Below are positions 58,520 to 60,682 of a stretch of DNA of 64,000 nucleotides, piece after piece; position 1 is the first letter of the stretch, and each line of letters opens with the position of its first letter. A program made the translations under genes and the position numbers. The DNA is taken from NCBI GenBank assembly GCA_001898255.1, contig MKTK01000010.1, positions 1-64,000 on the forward strand. The letters are read 5' to 3'. The DNA comes from Chryseobacterium sp. 39-10 (GTDB lineage Bacteria > Bacteroidota > Bacteroidia > Flavobacteriales > Weeksellaceae). The notes under the pieces were generated by a model. That model was not told the origin of the DNA and made no database searches. It worked only from the letters and a program-made list of their open reading frames with translations.

Positions 58520-59215
58520 TTAGAAAATACTTTGCAATTCACTTAGATTTTTGATGACGGTAACGCCGTCTGCATGGAAATTATCTTTAAAGACATCAAA
58601 GAAAACCACTTGCATGCCGTAGGATTTTGCGCCTTGCACATCAGCAATCCAATCGTCGCCGATCATCACTGAGTTTTCGGGAGAAGCATTTGATTTTTGC
58701 AATGCATATTCATAGATTTCCACCTGCGGCTTCCGAACATTAATTTCATCTGCTGAAGTGATGGTTTTAAAATAATTTTTGATACCCGAAAGCTCACACT
58801 TTCTGTAGGTTACCTCTTTAAAACCATTAGACAGAATATGGAGTTGATAATTGTTCTGTGATAAATACTCCAGTGTTTCGAAAGCACCTTCTACCAAGTC
58901 GTTGTAGTTGAGGATTTCATCTAAAAAGTTTTCCTCAAATACTTGTGCAAGTTCAAAATCATCAATCCCGAAAAAGAGAAAAGAGTCGTAAAAACGGTGT
59001 TTCCTAAGATATTCTTTGTTAATCTCCCCATCACGAATTTGCTCCCAAAGTCGCTCGTTGATGGTGAAATATTGCCGGTGAAAGTCTTCAAATTCCAGGT
59101 TGTATTTTTCTTCAACCTTCTCGCGGATAAAGATTTCTTTTAGGGTATAGTAGGCGTTTTTGCGGTGATCCCACAGGGTATTGTCAAGATCAAAAAAAAT
59201 GTGCTGCATATTCAT
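58520..59215 (-). CDS. HAD-superfamily phosphatase, YjjG-like
   Basis: A hydrolase of about 231 aa similar to YjjG nucleotidases, which dephosphorylate (often non-canonical pyrimidine) nucleotides. Motif I is FFDLDNTLWD (Asp nucleophiles), motif II LHILSNGF, and motif IV GDDWIADVQGAKSYG; an alpha-helical cap lies between. The track start at 59224 is a TTG inside the -7 box (59222-59229). ATGs at 59215 and 59209 both fit; I list the longer. Confidence 0.9.
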   Translation of the reverse strand: MNMQHIFFDLDNTLWDHRKNAYYTLKEIFIREKVEEKYNLEFEDFHRQYFTINERLWEQIRDGEINKEYLRKHRFYDSFLFFGIDDFELAQVFEENFLDEILNYNDLVEGAFETLEYLSQNNYQLHILSNGFKEVTYRKCELSGIKNYFKTITSADEINVRKPQVEIYEYALQKSNASPENSVMIGDDWIADVQGAKSYGMQVVFFDVFKDNFHADGVTVIKNLSELQSIF

Positions 59216-59241: not shown

Positions 59242-59376
59242 TTAGTTCTTCGAAACAAGGTGGTATTTGTTTTTAATCTTTAACACCTCGATACTTCGGG
59301 AAAAACTAAGCAAGAAATCGATTGTTTGTTTTTTGGGCTTCAAGCGCTTTTCGTTTAAAGTGTAATCTTTTTTCAT
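59242..59376 (-). CDS. Small conserved-looking protein (44 aa), absent from the ORF track
   Basis: An ATG at 59376 opens a 44-codon frame ending in TAA at 59242. It reads MKKDYTLNEKRLKPKKQTID and then FLLSFSRSIEVLKIKNKYHL plus VSKN. An AAGGA ribosome-binding sequence lies about 10 nt upstream, better than most genes here. From memory, short basic proteins with a PKK(E/Q)TIxFLLxxS core occur widely in Bacteroidota, but I cannot confirm this by search. The protein is basic with one amphipathic helix and no signal peptide. It lies 49 nt after the ECF sigma gene on the same strand, so cotranscription is possible. Function unknown. Confidence 0.75.
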   Translation of the reverse strand: MKKDYTLNEKRLKPKKQTIDFLLSFSRSIEVLKIKNKYHLVSKN

Positions 59377-59425
59377 AGGCAAATCCTTAATTACCCTAAA
59401 AACGAAAGTATTTTGAAAATATTAT

Positions 59426-60016
59426 TTAGCGTGTTAAAATAATATTATGGTCGCTCATCATTTTTCGCAAGTTGATAAGTGCATAGCGTACCCGCCCCAG
59501 AGTTGTGTTGATGCTGGTTTCTGTTTGCTCAGCAATATCCTTAAAACTAAGCCCATCAAAAAAACGAAGTTTGATGACTTCCCGCTGATTCTCCGGAAGG
59601 TATTCCAAAATTTTCATCAAGTCATCTTTGATCTGGATACTGATCAGTTGTTCTTCTATATTTTCTTCCTGATTGGCAAGCAAATCAAAGATTGAAAACT
59701 CTTCATTATCATAGCTAGATTCCGATATTTTGTTGTGTTTGGATACCAACCGATAATGATCGATAATAAGGTTGTGCGCAATTCTTTTTGCCCAGAGGAT
59801 GAATTTTCCTTCCTCATTGTAGCGCCCTTCCTTCAGCGTTACAATAATTTTCATAAAAGTATCCTGAAAAATATCATTGGCCAGACTCTCGTCCATAATT
59901 TTATAAAAGATAAAGGAGAACAGGTCTTTTTGGTGTCGCTCAATGAGGACAGCAAGTGCTTTTTCGTCGCCGTTTTTGAATTGGGAAATCAGCCAACTAT
60001 CTGTTTTTGTCGTCAT
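59426..60016 (-). CDS. ECF-type RNA polymerase sigma factor
   Basis: A sigma-70 family extracytoplasmic-function factor of 196 aa. Region 2 is seen in ALAVLIERHQKDLFSFIF and ANDIFQDTFMKIIVTL; region 4 is in LPENQREVIKLRFFDGLSF with an HTH KDIAEQTETSINTTLGRVR. The start was moved from the GTG at 60040 to the ATG at 60016. No anti-sigma gene is next to it, unlike SusC/SusD-linked ECF systems. The 44-aa gene follows. Target genes are unknown. Confidence 0.92.
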   Translation of the reverse strand: MTTKTDSWLISQFKNGDEKALAVLIERHQKDLFSFIFYKIMDESLANDIFQDTFMKIIVTLKEGRYNEEGKFILWAKRIAHNLIIDHYRLVSKHNKISESSYDNEEFSIFDLLANQEENIEEQLISIQIKDDLMKILEYLPENQREVIKLRFFDGLSFKDIAEQTETSINTTLGRVRYALINLRKMMSDHNIILTR

Positions 60017-60193
60017 AACTTTCTCTCTTAATTGTTCCACGAAATATGACTCACCTTTTCATCGTGTGCCTCAAAAATTTCGTGTTGATTAAAAATGAGT
60101 AAAGTTTATTCGATAGTTGTGCTTTTAGGAGTTGGCTAAATTAATAAAAAAAGTTAATGTATTGTTAAAAAAATAATAAAAAAACAATAATCA

Positions 60194-60682
60194 CTATTTT
60201 AAGTAATCCTGAAGCATTGGGATGGGCATATTCAAGGTAAAATTGAGGTTAAAACCGTTCATCTCTTTGCCGTTCAGTCCATTGCCTCCTAAAGAAAAAG
60301 CGTAGCCCGCCGCTAAATCCATCAATCCAAATAATGAAAACCCTACTTTTGGTGCAATGTATTTTGTTGTTGCTTCGGCACCTGCTAAGAAATAATAACT
60401 GTGGTACAAATCGACGCCCTTTTCAAAATTTAAAAGGACATCACCCTGAATTTTTGGCATGATGCCCAACTGCGAATTCACACTCCCCATCACGGCAGAA
60501 GCACCTATCCTGTAAAGCACATCATCGTTATTAAGAAAAAGCAACTTGCCTCCTATTTCTCCAAAACTCTGATTTTGGTACACATACCCCACACTCACCA
60601 ACTTATGCATGGTGAATTGCGACTTAGCCGAAACCCCTAAAAAAAGCAGCACTAAAAGAAAAAAACGGTATTTAAAATTCAT
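60194..60682 (-). CDS. Hypothetical exported, probably outer-membrane protein
   Basis: A 162-aa protein from the ATG at 60682. The signal peptide MNFKYRFFLLVLLFLGVSAK is cleaved near SQF. The mature part alternates short hydrophobic strands with Gly turns (LVSVGYVYQNQSFGEIGG, LMDLAAGYAFSLGGNG), like a small beta-barrel. No named domain recognised. It lies downstream of metK beyond a terminator. The 177-nt gap up to the sigma gene holds only AT-rich sequence. Confidence 0.7.
   Translation of the reverse strand: MNFKYRFFLLVLLFLGVSAKSQFTMHKLVSVGYVYQNQSFGEIGGKLLFLNNDDVLYRIGASAVMGSVNSQLGIMPKIQGDVLLNFEKGVDLYHSYYFLAGAEATTKYIAPKVGFSLFGLMDLAAGYAFSLGGNGLNGKEMNGFNLNFTLNMPIPMLQDYLK

Follow-up and report, generated by a model that had tools for sequence, protein, structure and literature searches.

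A stretch of 64,000 nucleotides from Chryseobacterium sp. 39-10 (hereafter the window) carries, directly behind the gene of an ECF sigma factor, an open reading frame for a protein of 44 amino acids that was missing from the list of its genes. The locus raises the question of whether so short a frame is a gene at all and, if so, what its product does beside a sigma factor. A preliminary description, made from the letters alone, had proposed a real small gene whose product might modulate the sigma factor, and had remarked that a classical anti-sigma factor is missing here. We confirm that the frame is a real, conserved gene (Table 1), and judge from sequence comparison and structure prediction that it probably encodes a miniature soluble anti-sigma factor, which would bind and inhibit the adjacent ECF sigma.

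Table 1. Positions of the features discussed, numbered from the first letter of the window.
Feature	Position	Strand	Remarks
ECF sigma factor gene, conserved single-copy sigma of the class	59426..60040	-	GTG start; likely ATG start at 60016
Promoter-like element ATAATA-N15-CGTT	59401..59425	-	Before the small gene; -35 box 59420-59425, -10 box 59401-59404
Small gene, proposed miniature anti-sigma factor	59242..59376, stop codon included	-	ATG at 59376, stop ends at 59242; conserved frame and position, purifying selection
Predicted helix, codons 16-28	59293..59331	-	AF2 pLDDT about 90; aligns with helix 4 of the long forms
Predicted beta hairpin, codons 29-42	59251..59292	-	AF2 of the 44-aa protein
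Codon 44, C-terminal Asn	59245..59247	-	Asn last in 194/207 family members
YjjG-type HAD nucleotidase, next gene downstream	58520..59212	-	TIGR02254 above cut-off

The small gene and its neighbourhood

The small protein (MKKDYTLNEKRLKPKKQTIDFLLSFSRSIEVLKIKNKYHLVSKN, followed by the stop codon) is basic, as first described, with 12 lysine or arginine against 4 aspartate or glutamate residues, and its ATG lies 49 nt behind the stop codon of the sigma gene on the same strand, in agreement with the close spacing noted at the outset. The neighbour was rightly called an ECF sigma factor, given that its product matches the Pfam Sigma70_r2/r4 and TIGR02937 models; it is near-universal in the class, occurring in 137 of 148 genomes and as a single copy in all but one. 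The small protein itself found no family match in Pfam and NCBIfam and nothing useful in the PDB by sequence. A translated search nevertheless recovered a full-length, stop-free homologue in 36/36 genomes of the window genus (57-77% identity to the window protein among the 35 other genomes), as well as weaker homologues in other families of the order, and the frame was likewise intact at all 80 Flavobacteriaceae loci that we retrieved by their sigma (see below). Across the 32 distinct genus sequences, pN/pS was 0.29 in frame; the two shifted sense frames gave 1.19-1.26 and the antisense ones 0.49-1.41. Entropy at the third codon position was about twice that at positions 1 and 2. The claim of an unlisted gene therefore holds on its intact frame, fixed place, and codon-level selection. 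The ribosome-binding site cited in its favour is present in the window (AAGGA), but a Shine-Dalgarno-like motif occurs in 2 of the 32 distinct genus sequences, and this argument therefore carries little weight; such rarity is expected where the start of translation is independent of the Shine-Dalgarno sequence (PMC9723704).

Every genus locus has the small gene immediately after the sigma gene and, in nearly all cases, the gene for YjjG after that. The latter neighbours the small gene mainly within the genus and is absent from the locus in the order's other families, and is not part of the sigma/small-gene system proposed here; beyond the genus, the sigma/small-gene pair is kept and the flanking genes differ. 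On the other side, between metK and the sigma gene, 36/36 genus loci encode a protein (60194-60682, minus strand) of 162 aa that appears to carry a signal peptide and has no Pfam or NCBIfam match.

Using a class-wide profile built from eight small proteins, we obtained matches in 123 of 296 class genomes, with a single match in all but one. The sigma gene was directly upstream of the small gene in 112 of the 133 loci fetched (the frames overlapping in one), and the small gene stood away from it in the remaining 21. The preliminary description had named two outcomes that would count against it, a frame broken in close relatives and conservation away from the sigma gene with no link, and neither was seen. 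Each of these 21 genomes still holds one clear copy of the sigma, scoring 252-308 bits (next best about 103), and in 17 of them the promoter-like element discussed below is kept before the separated small gene. In about half of the 21 loci that lack a local sigma gene, nth follows the small gene, frequently accompanied by bcp and recA. We did note that nth (endonuclease III) adjoins the small gene at eight individual loci, several of which continue with bcp and recA. Such an arrangement, with nth followed in several loci by bcp and recA, is likely the ancestral neighbourhood of the small gene, and its persistence would suit a protein with a stress or housekeeping role of its own that came to lie beside the sigma by chance. 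We consider this quite improbable, given that the sigma is retained in all 21 genomes, that the sigma pairing is what the genus and the named Flavobacteriaceae keep, and that both the promoter element and the homology to anti-sigma factors tie the small gene to the sigma.

The pairing was equally clear from the other direction. Named Flavobacteriaceae loci were collected by the sigma alone, which removes the ascertainment bias, and a family member of 45-50 aa was present 21-141 nt downstream of the sigma gene in 80 of the 80. Among 20 class genomes missed by the first profile, a member lay behind the sigma clearly in 13 and probably in 2 more, with none in 5.

Relationship to anti-sigma factors

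Across the class, the family forms a size series comprising proteins of ~180-220 aa with an apparent membrane anchor, soluble forms of 77-89 aa, forms of 55-70 aa, and those of 44 aa (the membrane spans of the long relatives were judged by eye). The 77-89-aa soluble forms, seen in several families, hold a full anti-sigma domain; they start like M-x-K-T-F-T-x-x-D-(L/I/V)-I-R-(Y/F)-x-Y-x-E, which is typical of anti-sigma N-termini, and end in P-x-x-x-T-(I/V)-x-x-I-L-x-Y-S, a motif common to the window protein. Their matches to anti-sigma models are weak (E 0.003-0.02) or absent, and one such form of 88 aa matched NCBIfam weakly, to anti-sigma models only (E 0.0033 and 0.13). In another class of the phylum, an orthologous sigma that shares the signature SINTALGRMRYALINLRK is followed by a protein of ~180-220 aa with one apparent membrane span, and a sigma neighbour of this kind reached the anti-sigma model NF052375 with an E-value of 2.4e-10, below the curated cut-off. 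Within the class, one relative (L444) combines an anti-sigma-like N-terminus, the motif SPEPEILNNILTFSKS, and then an apparent membrane span, and has NF052375 as its sole match (E 1.9e-4). A full-length profile (A3) reached the N-termini of the membrane-bound forms, and the hhalign comparison of short Flavobacteriales proteins with the long forms gave a probability of 96.6 and an E-value of 6.9e-10 over the C-terminal 35 residues.

The anti-sigma homology of the 44-aa protein thus runs via a chain, from 44 aa to 77-89 aa to the membrane-bound forms to NF052375. By descent, its place among the class I anti-sigma factors appears well supported on these comparisons; in the strict sense it is not one of them, helices 1-3 being absent. 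The earlier remark that a classical anti-sigma factor is missing was correct, with what appears to be the remnant of one in its place. The simplest reading of the series, whose direction we infer, would be stepwise shortening from a membrane-anchored protein to a soluble four-helix form, to ~60 aa, and then to 44 aa. Together with the adjacency at fetched and sigma-retrieved loci, this homology bears out the suggested link to the sigma and turns the general idea that the small protein may modulate it into a specific proposal.

The class I anti-sigma factors grip sigma4 with helices 1-3 and use helix 4 to mask sigma regions 2.1/2.2, the parts that would otherwise bind RNA polymerase (PMC7406223). 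The AF2 model of the 44-aa protein (64 sequences, mean pLDDT 85) predicts a coil at residues 1-15, a helix at 16-28, and a hairpin with strands at 29-34 and 37-42. The predicted helix carries the conserved P-x-x-x-T-(I/V)-x-x-(I/L)-L-x-(Y/F)-S-(K/R), and the sigma4-binding bundle of helices 1-3 is absent, residues 1-15 aligning with no bundle. A two-helix arrangement of the CnrY type was not seen in the model, and a fold search of the model against the PDB gave no clear match and no solved anti-sigma structure. The 44-aa sequence contains no hydrophobic or membrane span, and a cysteine or HxxxCxxC zinc motif (ZAS) was found in 0 of the 32 genus sequences searched.

Mean-field covariation was computed over 207 sigma/small-protein pairs (effective number 111), with sigma residues numbered within a sigma fragment. 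Five of the top ten couplings join the small helix to sigma2 (sigma residues 23-64), these being, with the sigma residue first, I30-L22, V64-F25, L37-L23, E23-S26, and K24-I19. The mean of the top ten was 4.78, compared to at most 4.71 in 59 within-clade shuffles. The shuffles averaged 1.7 helix-sigma2 couplings and reached at most 5, at least one of them equalling the observed count of five. This pairing of the small helix with sigma region 2 is suggestive. A fused sigma-small protein AF2 model, with the natural intergenic stretch as linker and its stops read as Gly, had a pTM of 0.50 and no readable interface.

Covariation of this sort indicates a possible contact and carries no sign of the effect. 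Given that helices 1-3 are gone from the short forms, the small protein may no longer inhibit, and could bind the sigma and help it as a co-activator or stabiliser, which the fixed association of the two genes would equally allow. RsoA, a small co-sigma, and Crl, a sigma-helper, are models for such a role. We regard it as unlikely, since the small protein is homologous to anti-sigma factors, the element in Flavobacteriales stands before the small gene only (see below), which suits feedback inhibition, and CnrY inhibits an ECF sigma with two short helices (PMC4598750, PMC7406223).

The promoter-like element

The gap between the sigma and small genes contains RYA(A/C)TA, 15 nt, and CGTT, with CGTT mostly 21-44 nt ahead of the small ATG. 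The copy before the small gene is the sole match to RYAMTA-N15-CGTT in the window (0.73 expected), and the element is present in 76 of the 80 Flavobacteriaceae gaps; only 2 matches lie elsewhere in 433 kb. At loci where the sigma and anti-sigma genes overlap, and must be co-transcribed, the junction lacks the element, which instead starts 37-46 nt before the sigma gene in 12 of 14 such loci (spacing 15 or 16; 0/14 and 0/14 in two control windows). Another 20 class loci, out of 104, carry it 102-159 nt before the sigma gene (controls 0). Before the sigma gene it was found in 0 of 79 Flavobacteriaceae loci and 0 of 36 genus loci.

As judged from its sequence and placement, the element resembles a promoter read by the adjacent sigma and points to sigma-driven negative feedback; the sigma appears to be of a stress type and to switch the small gene on. 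The presence of the element before the small gene and not before the sigma gene implies that, in the lineage of the window, the anti-sigma gene alone would be under sigma control, and such control would amount to negative feedback without positive autoregulation.

An independent transcript map of F. psychrophilum placed promoters of a kind named SM6, called ECF-type and marked by CGT at -10, before gldN, porU, a TPR protein gene, and an ECF/anti-sigma pair (PMC9723704). The element resembles these in the CGT at -10 (the -10 box only being compared) and in part of the targets; the sigma behind SM6 was left open in that work (PMC9723704). Beyond the small gene, we saw the element before gldN and the genes for PBP4, TolQ, and a TPR protein in genus genomes, and as single sites before porU, gldJ, and gldN in Flavobacteriaceae, seven such loci showing partial overlap with the SM6 targets. 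At gldN it was present in 14 of 26 cases, but overlapping the end of gldM in the genus. The porV gene, which SigP targets directly in P. gingivalis (PMC4800418), had the element in 2 of 25 cases, near background, and in the genome of the window itself there was no genome-wide excess (14 compared to 20 in the control). Given these two results, the link to type IX secretion is a lead only, and we do not claim an identity with SigP or a type IX secretion regulon.

The 'putative regulatory RNA Rfp11' (THC0290_N_0107) of F. psychrophilum also lies under an SM6 promoter (PMC9723704). Along with the promoter element of the small gene, this would fit a region that works as RNA, as a leader or small regulatory RNA, with the reading frame incidental. 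Such a reading is very improbable in view of the codon-level selection, the protein-level conservation across the class, the C-terminal Asn, and the profile homology to longer proteins. Rfp11 might itself come from transcription of this unlisted gene.

Proposed mode of action and known systems

In the miniature anti-sigma reading that we favour, the small protein would derive from an anti-sigma factor that was anchored in the membrane and had an anti-sigma domain of four helices. The membrane part would have gone first and helices 1-3 next, so that the fourth helix (residues 16-28) remains. This helix would bind sigma2 and so inhibit the sigma, which in turn would transcribe the small gene from RYAATA-N15-CGTT, closing a negative feedback loop. 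Given that the window protein has no recognisable sensing domain and has kept neither a membrane span nor a cysteine zinc motif, release would come from turnover of the small protein, perhaps via its almost invariant C-terminal Asn; the residues ahead of this Asn vary widely across homologues. In Bacillus, the C-terminal LCN of the anti-sigma factor SpoIIAB targets it to ClpCP (PMC5506225), and that the Asn serves as a comparable turnover signal here is a guess by analogy.

The small protein is like the class I anti-sigma factors (ASDI; RseA, RskA, ChrR, RsiW, MucA) in its homology through the long relatives, in the pairing of its gene with an ECF sigma gene, and in a helix that aligns with helix 4, the binder of sigma 2.1/2.2 in that class (PMC7406223). 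It is unlike them in lacking helices 1-3, the membrane span, and the zinc motif, in the separate promoter element of its gene, and in its C-terminal Asn. As in the class II factors CnrY (Cupriavidus metallidurans) and AabA (Acinetobacter), the sigma-binding part would be very short, and two helices suffice to keep an ECF sigma closed in both CnrY (PMC4598750) and AabA (PMC12153292), which makes a 44-aa inhibitor plausible. However, those two are membrane-anchored and show no sequence relation to the small protein, for which one helix and a hairpin are predicted. The Pseudomonas CfrX (ECF102), likened here by description, is also a small soluble putative anti-sigma protein (PMC8999054), but is proposed to act in a mechanosensing complex. 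Bacteroides, of the same phylum, also has anti-sigma factors paired with ECF sigmas, namely Reo (with EcfO) and the Dma type. We rejected EcfO/Reo as a match for the pair, Reo being a multi-compartment membrane protein that spans both membranes (PMC13114119), whereas the window protein is soluble, and its 44 residues hold no hydrophobic span for a Reo/Dma-type reach across the inner membrane, periplasm, and outer membrane.

In Bacteroidetes, anti-sigma domains lie beside only 6% of ECF sigmas, compared to an average of 32%, and the published survey that found this suggested that synteny is broken or that control takes other forms (PMC7406223). No earlier report of the small-protein family was found in the literature searched, which covered few subscription papers. 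The controller of this core, single-copy ECF sigma seems to have escaped notice as too short for calling or recognition. A reading extended to all Bacteroidia is possible, though on balance doubtful: the near-universal single-copy ECF sigma would be controlled by an anti-sigma factor shrunk from a membrane-anchored four-helix protein to 44 soluble residues that act via sigma2 alone, with the sigma of Flavobacteriales controlling the anti-sigma gene only, as pure negative feedback, and with the signal entering by regulated turnover of the small protein via its C-terminal Asn. If the proposal is true, the small protein would be among the smallest anti-sigma factors and would show a membrane sensor shrunk in nature, step by step, to one helix and a hairpin. 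It would also lend itself readily to testing whether a block of sigma2 is sufficient by itself, and its promoter element suggests which sigma drives the ECF-type promoters of flavobacteria.
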